64,000 nucleotides of DNA from Prevotella sp. (GTDB taxonomy: Bacteria; Bacteroidota; Bacteroidia; Bacteroidales; Bacteroidaceae): NCBI GenBank assembly GCA_017548605.1, contig JAFYZT010000040.1:124001-188000 (forward strand), given 5' to 3'. Under the pieces are notes generated by a model. The model saw only the letters and a list, made by a program, of their open reading frames with translations, did no database searches and was not told the DNA's origin. Each line of letters begins with the position of its first letter. Within the stretch, counting starts at the first letter, position 1. A program made the translations under genes and the position numbers. This document shows, one piece after another, positions 15,718 through 25,007 of the stretch.

Positions 15718-16621
15718 GATCAAGGCTGCGGCATTAGATTTGGGTTTCAGTGCCTGTGGCATAGCTCCCGCTGATGCCGTCGATGCCGCTACCCAACACC
15801 TTTTCCGTCAATGGCTGGCCGATGGCGCCCATGCAGACATGGGCTATATGGCCGGCCACATTGACAAGCGTCTTGACCCCCGTCAGTTGATGCCTGAGGT
15901 GAAGAGCATTATCTGTGTGGCCCTCAATTACGCTCCCAAACATCGCATCCCTGATAGCGAACCCCAATTGGCGGTATACGCATATGGTCACGATTACCAT
16001 GATGTGATGAAAGAGAAACTGCATCTTTTGGCGCAACGTATTGGCGCTGAGCATTATCGCGCTTTTTGTGATACCGCTCCTGTGCTTGAACGACATTGGG
16101 CTGTACGTTCTGGCATAGGGTGGATTGGCAAGAACCACCTCTTGATTATTCCCCATGCCGGGAGCATGTTTTTTTTGGGAGAGTTGTTCGTCGACTTCGA
16201 ATGTGAATATGATAATCCCCTCGTTTCCCGTTGCGGCAACTGTCGTCGTTGTGTCGATGCCTGTCCCACACATGCCTTACGTATCTGCGAGGGTGGTATG
16301 ACCCATTTTGATGCCCGTCGCTGTCTCTCCTACCTCACCATCGAGAACCGTGGTGCCTTGCCGGAGGGAACGGGTGAAAAGATGGGGCATACCATCTACG
16401 GCTGCGACCGTTGTCAGGAAGCCTGTCCGTGGAACCGCTTTTCCCGTCCAACGGAGGAGCCGCTGTTACAACCATCGGAAGAATTGCTTGGCATGACAGC
16501 CAAGCAGTGGGAGGAACTAAGCGAGGAAGAGTGGCGTCGGTTGTTCAAGGGCAGTGCTGTGAAACGAGCGAAGTATGAGGGGTTGATGCGGAACATCAGA
16601 GAGGCAAAAGAAGGGCAATAA
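15695..16621 (+). CDS. queG: Epoxyqueuosine reductase
   Basis: 308 residues. The catalytic Asp lies in CDTAPVLER (Asp126), followed by GWIGKNHLLI and two [4Fe-4S] cluster motifs: Cys180, 183, 186 and 190 in CGNCRRCVDACP, and Cys237, 240 and 244 in CDRCQEACPW, plus Cys210. This cobalamin-dependent enzyme performs the last step of queuosine formation in tRNA. It lacks the C-terminal HEAT repeats of some longer QueG proteins. The start at 15695 overlaps the deacetylase gene by 23 bases. queC, an early gene of the same pathway, lies at 63215-63880 but is not linked in an operon. Confidence 0.92.
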   Translation: MSSRSSNEIKAAALDLGFSACGIAPADAVDAATQHLFRQWLADGAHADMGYMAGHIDKRLDPRQLMPEVKSIICVALNYAPKHRIPDSEPQLAVYAYGHDYHDVMKEKLHLLAQRIGAEHYRAFCDTAPVLERHWAVRSGIGWIGKNHLLIIPHAGSMFFLGELFVDFECEYDNPLVSRCGNCRRCVDACPTHALRICEGGMTHFDARRCLSYLTIENRGALPEGTGEKMGHTIYGCDRCQEACPWNRFSRPTEEPLLQPSEELLGMTAKQWEELSEEEWRRLFKGSAVKRAKYEGLMRNIREAKEGQ

Positions 16622-16625
16622 CCAT

Positions 16626-16702
16626 TCTTCTACAACGAATGATTCTTTCTTATACAACGGATTATTCATTCTTATACAACGAATTGCACGAATGATTCTT
16701 TC
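16626..16702. repeat. Short repeats between converging queG and the papain-like gene
   Basis: The stretch holds three related copies of TTATACAACGRATT with GAATGATTCTTTCTTAT in between. Similar words (ACAACGGATTACACGAAT) recur at 28045-28080. No terminator hairpin is evident. Confidence 0.5.
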
Positions 16703-19700
16703 TTATAATGAGATGTTTGTTATGTCATAGTAATCAGACTGTATGACAAGCAGGGCATCGGGGAGAGTCAAGTTCTCGCATAACGGAGTAGATGGGCAAT
16801 AAGGCGCACACTCCTGTCGGAATTGTGTCGTGCAGTCTGCCGGATGTTTTGCAAGGATAGTCACCTGTGTTCCTGCGGTGTTATTCATCGGCACGAGGAA
16901 TATTTTTGAATAGGCAGTCATGGCTTTTCTCAACAGTTGTTGCATCTGTCTGTTATCGCCATTGATGAACGGGAATCGTCCAGTATTCTTGATGAAATGA
17001 TAGACCGAGAAATGTTGCAAACTCTCTTCCAGTTTGTTGACGATTGTTTGTTTGAGGTTATTCTTGAATTGAACAACGCTTTTCTCGTTAATGTCATAGT
17101 TGCCATGCTCAAGCAGTTCCGACAGTTTGATATTGCTTATGAGCACCTGTTCATTTTGTTGGTAGAAGCGTTCGAGCGTTGCATTGTCGAGCAGAGCGAT
17201 GAATGGTGGTTTTTGGACAGGTGACATTTTTTCCACACATTGCCTTTCCTCCTCATACCATGCTATGAGGTTATTGACATATGATTTTGCCGTGACGTTG
17301 AACGATCCCATTTTGTTGTAAAGGTTTGACAGCGAATCGAGCATCATTCCCGCCACAAACGCTTTCATGTCGAGTTCCCCGTCTTCTTTTTCTATTTCAC
17401 CAATGACCATTCCTTGTTGATACAACTGCTGCTCAAGACTGTTTCTCAGTGAAGCCAGGCTATGCCTCCTTTCTACCAGATAGCCAACAAGAGCAATGAG
17501 ATCGATGCCAGCGAAAGCCAACAGTATGAGGTTGACCGCCCCCCAAGTTTTTGTTATCCATGATAAGACAAACGCCAATACGATGAAAACAGCCGCCATC
17601 AGTCCGATGACAAATGCGTTTCTCCGCGTCGTTTTTTTATGTTCCTCTATCTTCGGCCCTTTCTCCATGGCCATCCGGTCCTTTTGCTCTTTGGCCAGAA
17701 TTATCCTTTCATGTAGCAACTGATGAGCGTCGTCGACGATGGCATCACGTTTAGTCTTATCCTTGAGGACATTGTCGAGATATGTAAAATCAGCATACAC
17801 CTGTTTGTATTCGGTAATCCACTGTTTCTGTTGTACCTTCTTCAGTTCCTTGAGCGACTGCAGGATAGCCATTCGAATGGCCGTGTCGGTACTGTCGAAG
17901 GAGATACGGTGCTTTGTGGTCACTCCCTTTACATTGTCGAGGCTGGATATTTCGGTGATGATGTATGCTGCGTTAAGATATTGTTTTTGTGCAACATACG
18001 CATAGGGCATGTAACAATATCCCTCATCTCCGAATTTTGTACCCCAGGAATTTCTCACCTTGAAGAATCCCGTTTCATCGTCGAATCCGCAGATGACCAA
18101 GGCATGGTTAGAGCCCTCATCTCCTTCTTGTGGCATCGCCACGAACGGCAATCCCAGATCCATCTCCTTAAACACCTTCATTGACACGATGACGGGGTAT
18201 CCCTCTGCGACGGCCGTTCTCAGGACATCAAGGTTATGCTGGAGGTCAGGACTCACATCAATGCTCAGTGCTTTTAGGATACGGTGTTTTATGCCGTCGT
18301 CGTATGCCTCCTGTGTCGGTTTGTCATCTGCATGTTCCTTTAGATACGGGCATTTGGTTTCCGAGCATACCCCCTTTTCCCCTATCGACTCGATGACCTC
18401 GAAGATGGCTGCCCCTTGTTGTCCCAGTTCACCCTTTCTCTCCCTTACATTATAATATACGAACCTTTCGCTGAAGTCAGATCCCAATTTCTTGTTTTTC
18501 TTGAGGATATACTCCATGACAGCCGTCACAGCGAACACTGCGCAGGCACCCAGTTCCCCTTGGTTTTTCACCTGTGTAAAATCCGCTGTAAGGTCAACGT
18601 TTTTATCCTGCGTCGTTGTCGTCGGCACATATTTTTCCTTCAGAGGATGTTCCTCGATGGCCATCTGTGCCGAACGGAACCGAGAGTTCTCGAAATTGAA
18701 ATTCTCCCCCACCACCACCTGCTGAGCCACCACAGCAGCCGTCTGCTGTTTCCTTGCCGCCTCTATCTCGTTGTCCATGCGTCGGATATATTCCGAAGCC
18801 TGTCGGATGTCGATACGGTATTTCTTTATGATGTCGATGGGTACCTGTATGGAGCCGTCATCATCTTGCGGACGGAATAACGTTGAATGGTCGATGACAG
18901 GGATATTCGTATCATTGTCGCATTTCACATTATCGTCTTCATCATGTTGGAACGTCATGGCCATATTGTTGTATCGTGTGAAGAAGGCCATCGGTTCCTT
19001 GAACAGATCAAGGAATGTGAGTTGTTTTCCATTAAAGAGCGATCCAGATAGAAGGTCATCATCGCTGAGCAGGATCTGTGCCATTACCGCCCGTTTCTCC
19101 GGCAGTGAGAGGTTGTCATCCTTTAAGAAGCCCATCACTTCATGTTCAAAATCATAGACAAATCGGTTCAAGTCGGCTGCGATGTGCGGTGTCAGTTGTC
19201 CCAGTGTCTTTCCTGCATGAAGATGTGCCGCCACGTGTCGTTCATAGAACGAGGAGAAGAAATTTGCTTTTCCTTCGAGGCGTCGTTGTGCCACATCGGC
19301 CACCTTGTTCACATCCACCTCCTGCATATGCAACCCCTCGCGTTGCATGACGGCGAGATAGGTATGGTGCAGCATGAAATGCAAGTAATAATACCTGTCG
19401 AAGTAGAGGCATGACAATCCGAATGTTGCTACCTTTTCCATATTGTGCTGCATCACCACCGAGTTATGGAGACACTCGTCGCACTCCACGTTAGCAATGG
19501 CGAACCATGCCAATGCCATCGCCATGGATTGTCCGTCAAATCCCAGGGCCACCTTATCCGCGTTGCAATTCTGGATGAGTATGACCTGTTCGAGTGAAGA
19601 ACAATCCTTTTTTGCCTCACACAGTTTCGTTGCATTCTCTATTGTCGTCCTGTTGTGGACAGACATATCCTCGTCGATACTCTTTTTCCACGACTCGTCG

Positions 19701-20170
19701 AAGAGCCTTGCCACGTCGGGGGCCAGTAGCAACACATCCACCCTACCCCTTATATTGCCTATTCCGGAAATGCACCGTGCCATGTTGGCAGCAGTTTCTA
19801 CACCCTGCGTGTCGTGCCCGGCGACTACAAGACAGAAAGCCATTTTCGTATCATTGGAAGCCTGTCCAAGGGTTATCCTTTGTTGGTAATGCCGCAGGAA
19901 AAAGGCTTTCATCTGTTTGTCGTCTTCCGGAGTGTCATTGACTACGGTCTGTTCCACCTCATAGAGGTTTCTCAGGTCAGGTGTGAATTGTTCACCATTG
20001 ATGCCAACAGACTTGAAATAAGCGATGTCGGGTACTTCTTTCCCCTGACACCATGAGAAGGTGTCAAAGTCCCTTGCGGCATCAGGTGCGTTTTTCTTTA
20101 CCTGTTCGCACACCTTGCCTGCCATCGGGCGAAGTTCTTTTCCGAGGAATATGTACGTTGTATGGTGCAT
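16703..20170 (-). CDS. Membrane-anchored papain-like (C1A) cysteine protease with tubulin-like N-terminal region
   Basis: 1155 residues, no signal peptide. Residues 530-745 are a papain-like protease: oxyanion Gln537 and catalytic Cys543 in NQGELGACAVF, His689 in NHALVICGF and Asn707 in VRNSWGTKFGDEGY. Two adjacent membrane segments (about 851-871 and 876-898) form a hairpin, and a helical region of about 250 residues follows, so protease and both ends should face the cytoplasm. Residues 105-280 show blocks resembling the neighbouring tubulin-like protein (AFCLVVAGHDTQG...LLLAPDVARLF; LYFDRYYYLHFMLHHTYLAVMQ) but without its GGTGCGT loop. Third gene of an operon with the VWA and tubulin-like genes, 42 bases after the latter. 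Function of the whole unknown. Confidence 0.85.
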   Translation of the reverse strand: MHHTTYIFLGKELRPMAGKVCEQVKKNAPDAARDFDTFSWCQGKEVPDIAYFKSVGINGEQFTPDLRNLYEVEQTVVNDTPEDDKQMKAFFLRHYQQRITLGQASNDTKMAFCLVVAGHDTQGVETAANMARCISGIGNIRGRVDVLLLAPDVARLFDESWKKSIDEDMSVHNRTTIENATKLCEAKKDCSSLEQVILIQNCNADKVALGFDGQSMAMALAWFAIANVECDECLHNSVVMQHNMEKVATFGLSCLYFDRYYYLHFMLHHTYLAVMQREGLHMQEVDVNKVADVAQRRLEGKANFFSSFYERHVAAHLHAGKTLGQLTPHIAADLNRFVYDFEHEVMGFLKDDNLSLPEKRAVMAQILLSDDDLLSGSLFNGKQLTFLDLFKEPMAFFTRYNNMAMTFQHDEDDNVKCDNDTNIPVIDHSTLFRPQDDDGSIQVPIDIIKKYRIDIRQASEYIRRMDNEIEAARKQQTAAVVAQQVVVGENFNFENSRFRSAQMAIEEHPLKEKYVPTTTTQDKNVDLTADFTQVKNQGELGACAVFAVTAVMEYILKKNKKLGSDFSERFVYYNVRERKGELGQQGAAIFEVIESIGEKGVCSETKCPYLKEHADDKPTQEAYDDGIKHRILKALSIDVSPDLQHNLDVLRTAVAEGYPVIVSMKVFKEMDLGLPFVAMPQEGDEGSNHALVICGFDDETGFFKVRNSWGTKFGDEGYCYMPYAYVAQKQYLNAAYIITEISSLDNVKGVTTKHRISFDSTDTAIRMAILQSLKELKKVQQKQWITEYKQVYADFTYLDNVLKDKTKRDAIVDDAHQLLHERIILAKEQKDRMAMEKGPKIEEHKKTTRRNAFVIGLMAAVFIVLAFVLSWITKTWGAVNLILLAFAGIDLIALVGYLVERRHSLASLRNSLEQQLYQQGMVIGEIEKEDGELDMKAFVAGMMLDSLSNLYNKMGSFNVTAKSYVNNLIAWYEEERQCVEKMSPVQKPPFIALLDNATLERFYQQNEQVLISNIKLSELLEHGNYDINEKSVVQFKNNLKQTIVNKLEESLQHFSVYHFIKNTGRFPFINGDNRQMQQLLRKAMTAYSKIFLVPMNNTAGTQVTILAKHPADCTTQFRQECAPYCPSTPLCENLTLPDALLVIQSDYYDITNISL

Positions 20171-20174
20171 TTAA

Positions 20175-20216
20175 GAGTGATGAGGGATGAGGGATGAGTG
20201 GTGAGGGATGAGTTAG
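20175..20216 (+). repeat. Period-7 intergenic array (GAGKGAT), six units
   Basis: Units GAGTGAT, GAGGGAT, GAGGGAT, GAGTGGT, GAGGGAT, GAGTTAG fill the gap between the tubulin-like gene and the protease gene and reach the stop codon of the former. Confidence 0.75.
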
Positions 20217-23008
20217 AGTTCGTTTTTGACGTATGCCACTTCGTCTTCCATCTGTTTGCGATGGTCTTCGTAGCCTTTTGCCTTGAGCAGTTCCTTGGTA
20301 ATTCGTCCGTTGAGGATGAACATATCGAGATAACCGGCCTTCACCTTAGCAATGAGTTCGTTGAAAGCCTCGTCGCCCATATTGGATCGTTTCTCGTTGA
20401 TTTTCTTCACCAGTTGGTCGTGAACGTCGGTGCGTGCCACCTGTCGGAACGCCTTGAACGCCTCTGCCCTTTCGTCGTTGGCAGCGAGTGTCACCCAGTA
20501 GTCGTCGAGGATATCTCCATTTTCCTCGTCGTAGTATTGGTATGTCCCCTCGTTGTTGCGTATGAATCCGAAGATGAGCGATTTGACCCACAGTTCCATG
20601 GTGTCGTCGTCGCGTTCGCTTGGGAAAAGCGAGTAATGTTCGCTTCTCATTCGTGCCTGTATGATGGTGTCGAAATGGCAGTTCACCTTTCTACGATGGT
20701 CTTCGTACTTATCCTTATATGACTCCACCGCCGAGATGATATACGGCGGTATCACTCCCACCTGTCGGTAGAACACGATGGAGTTCGGTGAACCTATGGA
20801 CACGAAGTCGGGCATGGTTGTTGTCTTGAGCATCGACTCGACGAGGTGTTCATTGATGAGCAACGACTTCGTCTTGTCCTCCACGCCGATATAGAAATAG
20901 TTTTCCGCCTCTTTGAGCGGCACATGTCCATGAGCCTGGTACGAGAATGAGAGCAGTGGTTCCGACTTGTCGATAGCCATATGCACGATGCGTTTCACGC
21001 TGTCGGGGTTGTTTTTGTACATCTCTTCCAGCACCCCTTCTATATTGACGTTCTTCCACTTTCCTGCTTCCGCCGTAGTTTCCGCATATTGCATAAAGAA
21101 TGTTTCCAATTGGCTGACATCGCATCCGTCGAGGTCTAGAATATTCCCTTTCCGTCCCATGACATTTATGCTACGAGCAAAGTCGGGAACGAGCAGGTTT
21201 TCCGTGTTTACCACCACGCTGCTGACATAATTTGCCGTGAGGTCTATCTGGAAGGTCAGCGGTGCCGATGCCATGATATTCTCCTGTTCCGCCACCTTTG
21301 CCCCCAGTTGTCTGATCAGCGTTTCGAGTGCATCAGTGAGGTTTTTCAGTCGTCTGAGATAACCTTCAATATATCCTTTCAGGCCATTGTAGAACGAAAT
21401 AGCCGCCGTCCGTCTTACTGCCTCACGTTTGTTCACTGCCACGTTTAGTGCAGCCATGATGACATCGTTCACCTTGTCTTCCATGGCGTTTTTGCCGAAG
21501 AATGGTTTTTTGTATGACCGCAAGGCATTCTCTGCTCCCGTCAGTTGTGCTTCGAAAGCCTGTTGACGGTCGTTGATGGCCGTCTGTTCCTGTGTCATCT
21601 CTCCGAGGAACACATCTATCTGGCTGATGACCGTTTCGAGTATCTCTCGTGTCATCCTGACACCCCCCTCTTGGTTGATATGGTCGGCCACGAGTTTATC
21701 GACTTGGTTATTCACCCTTGCAGACAGTTCCCGTACACGTTCGACATAGGTCTTCACGTCATTAGCCTCCTCGGCCACCACCCTTATCCATTCTCTTGAT
21801 TCGAGTGCCGGGTTTTCACGGTCTTCTATGTCTGCCAACGGGTATCTCGGCGATTTGGGCAGCATGAAGTCGATGACGTTGTCCTGTCCGTTATTTTCGC
21901 GTATGTTCACTTCCGGCGAGTCTATCCACTGATTGACGAGGTTGTTGACATCCATTTGCGACGACAGGAGTTTTCTCGCCAGTGCCTGTGCTGCCTTGAG
22001 TGCATAGAGGTGGAATAGCCTTTCGCCATCGAACTTTATTTCCGCCACACCCATGCCCGAGGCCCATGCCCTCTTGTCGAGAATATCCATGTCGCCCGCC
22101 GCTATTTCCTTTGCCACATTATCGACAGTGGAAGCGGATGCTGATGCCAGTTCACCCGATGCCGTGACGAGTGAGAGCGAAATCATCTCGCACAATTGGT
22201 CGATATCGTTATATGTGTCGCCGTGGTTGTTTTTGTTGTCGATGAACATAAACGCATCAAAGGGCTGCACGTTGGTCTCTACAGGGTCGTTGAGATTATC
22301 GACATGTACAGATTTTGATTGCAGGTCGAAGTGCATGAGCCAGTCAAGGTCCTGTATGGCTCCGTATGCGTTCGGCTTTACGTTTGGCATGGCCGTCGGT
22401 CTCATGGTCTCGAACACATCGGGAAGGACACCATATCCAATGAGTCGTCCCTCTCCAGCCGGAATAAGATGTTTGCGGAGAATATACGCCATGTTGATGA
22501 ACGTGCCGCATCCTGTTCCTCCACATACCGAGAACACCATGTGAATTTCTGTCTTTCCAGGTAAAAGTTGATACCTACCATTGTCGAGGTTTACAGCATC
22601 GTGAATGTCTGCCCACCGTTGTTTTATTTTGTTGGTGACTGGTTTGACGTTGAACCAGAGTGCGAATCGTCCATTGGAGCGTATCTGTCCTGCTCCGTCA
22701 GTCATTTTCGACAGGGCGTACAGGTTTTCTTTCGGGAACCACTCCAGTTTTTCCATATTTGCCTCATAAATGGGTCTTGGCAGGTCCACCTGTATGGGCA
22801 GTTGCTCGTTAGGTTCGAGACGTACCGTCCCATATTTTGAAGGCAATGTGTTGTTGTAGGCTCCTCCGTCGGTATCTATTCCGAGGAAGGCCACCATGGG
22901 CGGTACTTCGCCATACGTATCAATAAACATTTTCTTGGTATGCAGCAGTGCGTTCATGCCTGTGCCGCCGAGTCCGAGGTATAGACATCTTCTGATTTTT
23001 GTTGGCAT
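20213..23008 (-). CDS. Tubulin/FtsZ-like GTPase (tubulin_2 / FtsZl type)
   Basis: 931 residues. The N-terminal nucleotide-binding domain has a GLGGTG loop (12-17), an acidic strand end (LGIDTDG, 42-48), a GAGQIR loop (105-110) and the tubulin signature loop VCGGTGCGTF (161-170) that contacts GTP phosphates. FDAFMFIDNKNN (250-261) and KFDGERLFHLYALKAAQALARK (325-346) follow. The C-terminal 500 residues are mostly helical with coiled-coil character (about 400-560), far longer than FtsZ. No membrane segment. This belongs to the large tubulin-like proteins reported to co-occur with VWA proteins in a predicted membrane-remodelling system. It lies between the VWA gene (91-base gap with a period-9 repeat) and the protease gene. 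Confidence 0.85.
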   Translation of the reverse strand: MPTKIRRCLYLGLGGTGMNALLHTKKMFIDTYGEVPPMVAFLGIDTDGGAYNNTLPSKYGTVRLEPNEQLPIQVDLPRPIYEANMEKLEWFPKENLYALSKMTDGAGQIRSNGRFALWFNVKPVTNKIKQRWADIHDAVNLDNGRYQLLPGKTEIHMVFSVCGGTGCGTFINMAYILRKHLIPAGEGRLIGYGVLPDVFETMRPTAMPNVKPNAYGAIQDLDWLMHFDLQSKSVHVDNLNDPVETNVQPFDAFMFIDNKNNHGDTYNDIDQLCEMISLSLVTASGELASASASTVDNVAKEIAAGDMDILDKRAWASGMGVAEIKFDGERLFHLYALKAAQALARKLLSSQMDVNNLVNQWIDSPEVNIRENNGQDNVIDFMLPKSPRYPLADIEDRENPALESREWIRVVAEEANDVKTYVERVRELSARVNNQVDKLVADHINQEGGVRMTREILETVISQIDVFLGEMTQEQTAINDRQQAFEAQLTGAENALRSYKKPFFGKNAMEDKVNDVIMAALNVAVNKREAVRRTAAISFYNGLKGYIEGYLRRLKNLTDALETLIRQLGAKVAEQENIMASAPLTFQIDLTANYVSSVVVNTENLLVPDFARSINVMGRKGNILDLDGCDVSQLETFFMQYAETTAEAGKWKNVNIEGVLEEMYKNNPDSVKRIVHMAIDKSEPLLSFSYQAHGHVPLKEAENYFYIGVEDKTKSLLINEHLVESMLKTTTMPDFVSIGSPNSIVFYRQVGVIPPYIISAVESYKDKYEDHRRKVNCHFDTIIQARMRSEHYSLFPSERDDDTMELWVKSLIFGFIRNNEGTYQYYDEENGDILDDYWVTLAANDERAEAFKAFRQVARTDVHDQLVKKINEKRSNMGDEAFNELIAKVKAGYLDMFILNGRITKELLKAKGYEDHRKQMEDEVAYVKNEL

Positions 23009-23010
23009 AA

Positions 23011-23091
23011 TGGTATAGAGATTTTAGTTATTTATAGTTGTAATAGTTTGGATAGAGGCTATAGACGGGATAGTTGCTATAGTATTTATAG
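23011..23091 (+). repeat. Period-9 intergenic array (NNNNNATAG), seven to nine units
   Basis: From 23029 every ninth base closes an ATAG: TATTTATAG, TTGTAATAG, TTTGGATAG, AGGCTATAG, ACGGGATAG, TTGCTATAG, TATTTATAG. It fills most of the gap between the VWA and tubulin-like genes. Confidence 0.8.
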
Positions 23092-23099
23092 CGTTGTCG

Positions 23100-24839
23100 T
23101 TACAGGGCTTGTATTTTCATTTTGAGGTTGGTGTCGGTTTCTTCGAGTTCCGTTTCCGCGCCCCTTGGGAGTTTGTTGAGGGGTATACAGAGCACATTTT
23201 GAGCCGTTCGCAGTCTTACAGCCCTGCCGTCGGGTTCTGCCGTTATGATGGACTGGAGGAAGGACGGATTGATGAAATAGACTATTTTTCCTTTGAACAG
23301 TTTTCCGAGTGCCGACTGTTTTTTCTGTGGTAGTTTATTGGCAATAACCACCCGTCGCACCCCTTTCAGTTTTTTCACTGCGAACACCGGTTCAGTAACT
23401 TTCAGTTGACTTACGCCACGGAATGTGGGGAAGAAGAAACGTTTGAGTACAAGGAACCATAAGAGAGCCGCTGCTACGAGGATGATGCCAATCACTAATA
23501 GTGCCCTGGCCCATGGGTTCCAATTGATGTCGTAGTCTGCCGCAAGGTCCATTCTGTAGTCTGGTGCAGGCAGTCCGTTAACCATTTCAAGATTTGTTGC
23601 CGCTATGGGAGAGAGCAGGAAATGACGTTTTTCAGTATTGGCATCACGATGGAACTGCAGTGTGAGCGTTGCCTCTTTTTCTTTTGCCTGAATGATGAAC
23701 GAACAGTCGGGACAAGGTTGTCCGTTGTAAATCACGTCGAAATCATCGTTTCCTTTGTCGGAAGTCACCTTGTATTGTATCGCCCCGTTGTTTTTCAATG
23801 CATGACGGTTGAATACCGCCTTAAGGTCGCATACGACCGTTGCCGGTTCGCTCTCCCTGAAGAAGAGGAACGAGGGGTAATAGTCAGCATCGCCCAGATT
23901 TAGGTTATTGTCACCTGCGAGCAGTTGCAGCGAGTTGATAGGTCGGTTGGTCACCTCCGCCGGGAAGGTGGGATTGATGATGTTCACACGCCGGGCATCT
24001 TTCGGTACGATGGTTACTTCGAAGTCGAGCTTCTCCGGCAGTTGTTCCAGTTGTTCGTCGGGTACCCGTTTGATGGCCATGAGCCGTGCCACACCTTGGT
24101 TGACCGATCCCCCGTCTATTACCACATCATAATACGGACTGTTTTCCTGTGCCTGCGCCTCGAAGGTATGCCGATAAGTGAAGAACAGTTCAGCCCTTAC
24201 CGTGTCGGAGCCCGTGTCGAATCGCCACACGATGCCGTTCATGGTGATGATGTTGTCGTTGATTCCCTTCACCAACCGAATATGTTCATCGCACTCATTG
24301 ATGGCCTGTTCTATCTCTGGGTTTTCCGATGCCGGCGTGAGCATGAAATATACCACCTGTACATTATCAGGTGCCGTGGGGCACCAGTTGCGTATAAGGT
24401 CGGCCACGGCATGGGTGCCATGCACATTGTCGGAACCATCGGTAAGGAGGTAGATAACGTTCTGTCCGTGTGGGTTCACCGCTTTCATGGCTCTATTCCA
24501 CGCGCCCACGATGTCGGTGTTTGTCGGTTTATCGACCACCCCATCTATCCGGCTTTCGAGGTCATCCCAACGGAACTGGTCACGGCGAAAAGTATTAGTA
24601 GAAAGGGGGTTGCTGTCTTGGAAAGGAATAAAGAGGATGTCGCACTGGTCAGTTTTCTTTTCTATGTCGCCGCGCAGACAGTCTTTTGCTTTCTGCCATA
24701 TATCAGGAGCCCCACCATATCCTTTCATGGATGTGGTGCAGTCGAAGAGGTAGATATATTTCACTTCCTTGTTTTGTGCGTTTGTCTGGGCAAACGATAT
24801 TAACAGGAGCAGCAGTGTCAGTAATTTTCGCCAGTTCAT
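23100..24839 (-). CDS. Membrane-anchored von Willebrand A (VWA) domain protein
   Basis: 579 residues from the ATG at 24839 (an upstream ATG at 24887 lies inside the promoter region). A signal peptide (MNWRKLLTLLLLLISFAQTNA) leads to a VWA domain with MIDAS ligands Asp33, Thr35 and Ser37 in FDCTTSMKG, Thr108 and Asp134 in LLTDGSDN. Beta-rich regions follow, then one membrane helix (444-465, ARALLVIGIILVAAALLWFLVL) and a basic C-terminal domain of 114 residues in the cytoplasm. Thus the VWA faces the periplasm and the tail can reach the tubulin-like protein made by the next gene. First gene of the operon, with its own promoter at 24875-24906. Confidence 0.87.
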   Translation of the reverse strand: MNWRKLLTLLLLLISFAQTNAQNKEVKYIYLFDCTTSMKGYGGAPDIWQKAKDCLRGDIEKKTDQCDILFIPFQDSNPLSTNTFRRDQFRWDDLESRIDGVVDKPTNTDIVGAWNRAMKAVNPHGQNVIYLLTDGSDNVHGTHAVADLIRNWCPTAPDNVQVVYFMLTPASENPEIEQAINECDEHIRLVKGINDNIITMNGIVWRFDTGSDTVRAELFFTYRHTFEAQAQENSPYYDVVIDGGSVNQGVARLMAIKRVPDEQLEQLPEKLDFEVTIVPKDARRVNIINPTFPAEVTNRPINSLQLLAGDNNLNLGDADYYPSFLFFRESEPATVVCDLKAVFNRHALKNNGAIQYKVTSDKGNDDFDVIYNGQPCPDCSFIIQAKEKEATLTLQFHRDANTEKRHFLLSPIAATNLEMVNGLPAPDYRMDLAADYDINWNPWARALLVIGIILVAAALLWFLVLKRFFFPTFRGVSQLKVTEPVFAVKKLKGVRRVVIANKLPQKKQSALGKLFKGKIVYFINPSFLQSIITAEPDGRAVRLRTAQNVLCIPLNKLPRGAETELEETDTNLKMKIQAL

Positions 24840-24874
24840 ATCGTTTAGGTTTAGTTGGTCATAAGATTGTTGTG

Positions 24875-24906
24875 CAAATGTAATCAATTGTCACGATACT
24901 GACAAG
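24875..24906 (-). promoter_or_regulatory. Promoter of the VWA / tubulin-like / protease operon
   Basis: On the minus strand CTTG (24906-24903), 20 bases, then TACATTTG (24882-24875), close to the TTTG-N20-TAnnTTTG consensus. It lies 35 bases before the VWA start at 24839. I see no comparable element in front of the two downstream genes. Confidence 0.65.
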
Positions 24907-24937
24907 AAAAGGGGCTATTTTTTGCAAAATAATTGAT

Positions 24938-25007
24938 GAAGGACGAGTGATGAGGGATGAGGGACGAGTGACGAGGGATGAGAGATGAGAGATGAGGGAC
25001 GAAAAAG
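24938..25007 (+). repeat. Period-7 intergenic array (GAGNGAY), ten units
   Basis: Ten consecutive heptamers from GAAGGAC to GAAAAAG, eight fitting GAGNGAY. They lie upstream of the VWA promoter and just beyond the terminator at 25012-25039. The rest of 24840-25127 holds that hairpin and a purine-rich GGAAAAGGGAG-type repeat; no gene. Confidence 0.8.

Follow-up and report, generated by a model that had tools for sequence, protein, structure and literature searches.

We analysed a window of 64,000 nucleotides of Prevotella sp. DNA (assembly GCA_017548605.1, contig JAFYZT010000040.1, positions 124,001 to 188,000 of the forward strand; positions given below are those of the window). Between positions 16703 and 24906 it carries three co-directional minus-strand genes in the order VWA, TUB and PROT, with gaps of 91 nt (VWA/TUB) and 42 nt (TUB/PROT). 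An earlier note on this DNA had read their products as a membrane VWA protein, a 931-residue tubulin/FtsZ-like protein and a papain-like protease, forming a candidate membrane-remodelling machine. Open reading frames (ORFs), Pfam matches and alignments confirmed the three-gene observation as a whole, and showed that the trio is a conserved, operon-like unit in which the GTP loops of TUB and the protease residues of PROT are kept.

The three proteins and their conservation

A search of 398 Prevotella genomes with the Tubulin_2 family profile (PF13809) returned 77 genomes with a match at E<=0.001, 60 of them above the curated cut-off. The 62 loci that were clustered comprise 59 of the 60 genus loci with a strong Tubulin_2 match, one from another family, L008 and L009. 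Weaker matches, most of them to frames of ~470-570 residues that are probably ordinary FtsZ, were left out, and L085, which is the contig of L008, was dropped from the counts. The PROT cluster is present in 14 of these loci (13 distinct), and never without VWA. In all 13 distinct loci (12 of the 398 Prevotella genomes, and L009), the three genes are adjacent and in the same order, with a vWA gene beside TUB. Identity to the window proteins falls as low as 35% for TUB, 25% for PROT and 23% for VWA. Chance adjacency is ruled out by these 13 loci, and the neighbourhood search thus bears out the earlier proposal of a real system: far from being rarely adjacent, the genes stay together. The distance matrices of the trio proteins agree (r 0.79-0.91; permutations for the two pairs that include TUB), and no fourth gene cluster accompanies the trio in the ORF clustering of the fetched loci.

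VWA (23100..24839, minus strand) is a 579-residue protein with a signal peptide-like start (judged by eye), a predicted periplasmic part made of the VWA domain and a beta-rich region, one transmembrane (TM) helix and a cytoplasmic tail of ~115 residues, as delineated by ORF, alignment, PDB profile and hydropathy. Its start codon, as read in the sequence, is the ATG at 24839-24837 and not the TTG of the ORF list. Counted from this ATG, the metal-site residues previously assigned (D33, T35, S37, T108 and D134, a D-x-T-x-S / T / D set) are correct and invariant in 13 of 13 aligned proteins (the window, ten other trio loci, L099 and L134; the split VWA genes of L008 and L009 were excluded). The single helix was also rightly called: one strong hydrophobic segment, at residues ~447-465 in the window (23445..23501, minus strand), is present in all 13 trio loci. 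This protein has two weak points. The VWA domain of the window is a sub-threshold Pfam match (VWA_2, E=0.022, 15.8 bits vs 27); the family profile matches VWA-type PDB chains (best 8.6e-5), and the VWA of L094 lies above the Pfam cut-off and that of L091 narrowly below. In addition, the N-terminal hydrophobic segment exceeds the hydropathy cut-off in 10 of 13 proteins and is below it in the window, L069 and L070.

TUB (20213..23008, minus strand; 931 residues) belongs to the tubulin superfamily, as had been proposed: Tubulin_2, or FtsZ-like-1, matches residues 9-343 with E=3.8e-48 and 165 bits, for a curated cut-off of 27. The GTP-loop residues G12, G14, G15, T16 and G17, and those of the GGTGCG signature loop at residues 163-168 (22505..22522, minus strand; G163, G164, T165, G166 and G168), are invariant in 17 of 17 aligned TUB sequences. 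Hydropathy revealed no TM segment in TUB in any of the 13 trio loci. Its tubulin fold rests on Pfam, because the 931-residue protein could not be folded: the model built from three input sequences (window, L008 and L009) is unreliable, with a mean pLDDT of 33.9. Within this model long helices, a possible counterpart of the extended coiled coil that FtsZl1 proteins have along with a helical C-terminal domain, are predicted at residues 418-581 and are broken at an aromatic/basic putative coiled-coil tip, KKPFFGKN (residues 500-507; 21488..21511, minus strand), which may touch the membrane. A loose regular expression, picked after the fact, found such a tip in 16 of the 17 aligned sequences; among the other 11 TUB partners it is mostly absent or displaced. 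PMC9871819 distinguishes Tubulin_2 from the FtsZ/tubulin family proper.

PROT (16703..20170, minus strand; 1155 residues) combines a tubulin-fold-like N-terminus, a papain domain, a TM hairpin and a C-terminal domain, as delineated by Pfam, alignment, profile, hydropathy and fold comparison. Peptidase_C1 matches residues 530-722 (E=1e-17), and the closest solved structure to the family profile is 3ois (E=2.5e-43). The Gln-Cys-His-Asn set Q537, C543, H689 and N707 is invariant in 13 of 13 aligned proteins; the papain domain, with Cys543, His689 and Asn707, maps to 18005..18583 (minus strand). The domain and its catalytic residues are thus those of papain family C1 peptidases; unlike these, it sits inside a large membrane-tethered protein without an N-terminal signal, as the earlier description of a membrane-tethered cysteine protease had it. 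The proposed membrane hairpin (residues 852-899; 17474..17617, minus strand) stands for the window, with hydrophobic segments at 852-870 and 881-899, and for 7 of 13 trio loci, whereas in the other 6 only one segment is above threshold. Because PROT has membrane segments and none of its 13 trio-locus versions starts with a hydrophobic segment, its protease should face the cytoplasm.

Outside the trio, the seven flanking window genes that were scanned with Pfam encode TMEM260-like, deacetylase, QueG, GH20 hexosaminidase, tRNA_SAD, DUF218 and alpha-amylase proteins, and are of metabolic or envelope type. No GTPase, OmpA or kinase gene is found among them, in agreement with the earlier note for the first two; the trio proteins likewise have no GTPase match (by Pfam, no GAP1 profile having been run), and an AAA+ domain is matched neither in the trio nor in these seven genes. 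The flanks of the trio vary between loci, save in close pairs. The deacetylase gene adjoins queG in all 12 further loci of the genus that match queG well, and none of these has a trio gene (~1.5 kb compared); within the stretch compared, the other neighbour of queG in these relatives is not the hexosaminidase of the window. This points to an accessory position but falls short of a clean empty site. Taken together, these data show that the cassette is accessory and patchily distributed. As for mobile DNA, no TUB relative was confirmed on viral contigs; matches of viral contigs to PROT (the best 80 of 141) all fall in the papain region among the matches listed. One unverified, unannotated phage record has a TUB-like stretch. 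Plasmid records contain TUB relatives in 8 cases, relatives of the L057 TUB in 7 and of the L144 TUB in none; 22 plasmid records match PROT, and the 10 matches listed are confined to the papain region.

Probable exchange of the protease in the third gene

We then compared 28 chosen third genes, defined as the gene after TUB: those of the 13 PROT loci, L091, L099, L094, four c22 loci, L132, L134, L141, L144, L145 and three Thermaceae plasmids. L132, L134, L141, L144 and L145 are 5 of 21 order/phylum neighbourhoods, and other Tubulin_2 loci, of other contexts, are not counted; in L141 the contig end leaves no VWA gene in reach. Of the 28 loci, 22 have a peptidase domain or motif within the third gene or close to it, 3 have BrxL and 3 have neither.

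One comparison comes from the genome of the window itself, which has a second Tubulin_2 system (L091; G000 contig C32, 1-19600) with a VWA gene, a TM gene, a TUB 28% identical to that of the window and a 976-residue third gene. The latter ends in Transglut_core (E=6e-18) with Cys, His and Asp motifs, so that a transglutaminase-like domain stands where the window has papain; L099 is a relative of L091. In L094 the corresponding domain is calpain (E=9.1e-17), with Cys, His and Asn motifs. In L057, L071, L079 and L081 the third gene has no protease match (that of L057 was scanned) and is followed by a TM protein with an HExxH...E motif, and in L141, from another class of the phylum, a TM protein of this type lies one gene further on. 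These HExxH...E proteins may resemble DA1/LIM peptidases; their Pfam metallopeptidase matches are sub-threshold. A TM transglutaminase-like protein, also sub-threshold, adjoins the third gene in L144. On the three Thermaceae plasmids (L227, L228 and L229) the order is vWA, tubulin, hypothetical gene and BrxL, with an insertion sequence element before BrxL in L229. Tubulin systems may here be linked to BREX-related defence. The L227 megaplasmid also has HmaC/DUF499 and DUF1156 genes upstream of the cassette. As to the loci in which no peptidase was seen, the next gene in L134 is of DnaJ type, the next genes in L132 were not scanned, and the contig ends in L145. The DnaJ-domain gene of L134 (14465-15559) comes after a trio of VWA, tubulin and third gene, the last of which has no protease match. 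The comparison supports reading the protease as a swappable output module of the cassette. Azospirillum L233, outside the 28, speaks against it: there the tubulin gene is followed by genes of 710 and 1118 residues without Pfam peptidase match.

What the exchanged proteases are attached to is suggested by the N-terminal region of PROT (residues ~1-257; 19400..20170, minus strand). Two modest lines, fold comparison of a predicted model and profile statistics, support its assignment as a tubulin-fold domain that lacks the GGTGxG loop. Residues 1-257 were scored as matching the tubulin/FtsZ fold, and the GGTG loop is found in none of the 28 third genes (first 430 residues scanned). The trio would therefore comprise one GTP-binding tubulin and one degenerate, enzyme-bearing partner, and its third protein is probably a pseudo-tubulin carrying interchangeable proteases.

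Several results weigh against this assignment. The PROT model, from three sequences, is weak (mean pLDDT 51.1, pTM 0.49); plain Foldseek with it ranks C11 proteases first (E 7e-4, TM ~0.2) and CetZ2 20th, and VIA-align re-aligns just the candidates that Foldseek supplies. The TUB profile misses the PROT of the window (score -3.3, equalled by 70 of 200 shuffles) and picks out its relatives alone. A whole-length profile test did no better than its controls (best real domain E 0.058, reversed-sequence control 0.054); the domain-wise test was devised after it, and its C-domain half gave no decision. Comparison of the third-gene families and TUB by hhalign yielded one clear match (c82-L134, 97.6%), 27% for PROT-L132, and nothing for the remaining third-gene families or the Thermaceae proteins. 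Finally, no sequence-level tubulin signal was found in the c22, c339, L132, L141 and Thermaceae third genes.

Interpretation of the cassette

We tentatively favour, at slightly less than even chances, the reading of the cassette as a GTP-switched, membrane-anchored protease signalling system, a variant of the tubulin-vWA kind. The architecture suggests that VWA is a periplasmic receptor, TUB a cytoplasmic NTP switch and PROT an effector carrier at the cytoplasmic face of the membrane. In such a system the periplasmic VWA domain would sense an envelope ligand or damage; the cytoplasmic tail of VWA would seed GTP-dependent assembly of TUB with PROT beneath the inner membrane; the papain domain would be turned on when PROT clusters or changes conformation; and this domain would cut cytoplasmic or membrane targets. 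The most parsimonious scheme would be a co-assembly, dependent on GTP, by which the protease is either clustered or released. We infer each of these steps beyond the conserved trio and its intact sites. The exchange of the output module and the scattered occurrence of the cassette make a regulated response to stress or conflict the likeliest use, and an immunity-like role, which we favour, is plausible. Two observations count against this reading: agreeing distance trees are equally expected from joint inheritance of neighbouring genes, and the trio proteins match neither an NCBIfam family nor, for any of the three, a PADLOC family.

A more specific form, which we regard as doubtful, is a prokaryotic switch of a new class. 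Here a signal from the periplasmic VWA would make the active tubulin assemble together with the pseudo-tubulin at the inner membrane, and the pseudo-tubulin would be a docking platform repeatedly grafted with proteases of unrelated types (papain, calpain, transglutaminase-like or a metallopeptidase next to it), in a cytoskeletal analogue of the apoptosome. If the partner in this lineage is a dead second tubulin with a replaceable protease, FtsZl1/Tubulin_2, described since 2010, would gain a concrete output, proteolysis, and tubulin-fold assemblies would rank beside STAND and MoxR ATPases among NTP-driven protease-activation platforms.

Known systems share parts of this design. FtsZl1, the Tubulin_2 family, was placed by Makarova and Koonin in predicted systems with vWA, GTPase, kinases and OmpA, the vWA gene being adjacent in the majority of predicted operons (PMC2875224). 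The link drawn to these systems in the earlier note is upheld by the family and GTP loops of TUB and by its vWA partner. They differ from the window cassette in their GTPase, OmpA and kinase components, which are missing from its scanned flanks, and the product of the third gene of the cassette is probably a degenerate tubulin joined to a protease. The idea that the protease stands in for GTPase and OmpA holds as far as their absence from these flanks goes; it is not a simple replacement, since the protease sits on a third core protein with a degenerate-tubulin-like N-terminus and other protease types occur elsewhere. The main text of PMC2875224 contains none of the words protease, peptidase, papain, transglutaminase, calpain and caspase.

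Kaur et al. (2020) classed tubulin-vWA GTPase systems as conflict systems, with the tubulin theme confined to Firmicutes and Actinobacteria and two tubulin genes in Firmicutes forms (PMC7159879), a reading that the earlier note had not considered. Like these GAP1-N2 GTPase-centric systems, the trio has a tubulin with a predicted coiled coil and a membrane vWA protein; unlike them, it has no GTPase gene seen with it, and its peptidase is grafted on a second, tubulin-like protein. Peptidase domains, rarely transglutaminase-like, occur in other vWA systems (PMC7159879), and in a MoxR-vWA group fusions of vWA with variable peptidase effectors are described (PMC12839542). The trio shares with the MoxR-vWA systems the logic of an NTP switch, a vWA protein and an exchangeable peptidase; it lacks an AAA+ domain, the tubulin would be its NTP switch, and its VWA is predicted to be periplasmic and is not fused to a peptidase. 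vWA and tubulin proteins have also been reported near CRISPR loci (PMC10910872); PMC10067837 offered nothing further for comparison. Among titles and abstract openings, which leave most subscription papers uncovered, we found neither a tubulin-protease fusion or trio of this kind nor a paper devoted to FtsZl1/Tubulin_2 function.

One alternative is anti-phage defence proper: VWA or the TUB assembly would sense infection and the protease bring about abortive infection, much as in NTP-switch conflict systems whose peptidase effectors vary. The conflict-system precedents (PMC7159879, PMC12839542) speak for it. The three Thermaceae cassettes adjoining BrxL, with an HmaC/DUF499 gene close to one of them, point the same way, as do flank genes for IIG restriction (L070), TIR-like (L061) and MkoA-like (L009) proteins. 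However, these three were chosen by eye from 51 flanking genes of 14 loci without a control, the others not being PADLOC-scanned; the seven scanned flank genes of the window are metabolic or envelope genes, and the lack of a PADLOC match for the trio bears on this alternative too. We consider it possible at best.

Membrane remodelling of the FtsZl1 type, in which the inner membrane would take its shape from VWA and TUB, with the protease trimming or disassembling the complex, is unlikely. The TUB family and its vWA partner (PMC2875224), the membrane segments of VWA and PROT and the aromatic/basic tip of TUB are consistent with it, but no result of our analysis speaks to membrane shape, the change of protease type is left unexplained, one reviewer's doubts about remodelling are printed with PMC2875224, and the tip is not general among the other TUB partners. 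The overall interpretation of the earlier note is thus partly supported, its remodelling component, though possible, finding no support here. Envelope-stress housekeeping, in which the periplasmic VWA would bind a ligand that is misfolded or metal-bound and the protease would adjust envelope proteins, fits the intact VWA metal site and the DnaJ-domain gene of L134 but is equally improbable, since sporadic occurrence with differing flanks is unusual for housekeeping.

Promoter, repeats and other Tubulin_2 operons

A candidate operon promoter, TTGTCA-N17-TACATT (24877..24905, minus strand), was identified by consensus; the promoter and terminator scan gave 14 promoter-like matches in the region for 11.1 expected, a number not above chance. 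The same site also agrees with the Bacteroidota -7 motif TAnnTTTG. By eye, no repeat search having been run, short degenerate repeats are present at both ends of the cassette: ctcatc-type upstream (~24935-25000) and aatgattctttcttatacaacg-type downstream (16620-16710).

A different Tubulin_2 operon, commoner than the trio of the window, occupies 38 of the 62 loci (e.g., L048:8831-18892), and in none of these does the VWA cluster of the window have a member gene. It encodes a small membrane protein, a tubulin of ~1035 residues, a zinc-ribbon/Big_2 TM protein, secreted-looking proteins without Pfam matches and a DUF4440-like protein; L055, of this type, also has a PEGA/outer-membrane barrel protein. 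On a plasmid of Azospirillum sp. TSA2s (L230), a tubulin-like gene adjoins two caspase-family genes and OmpA genes, with Peptidase_C14 (E=2.3e-21) in the one caspase-family gene scanned.

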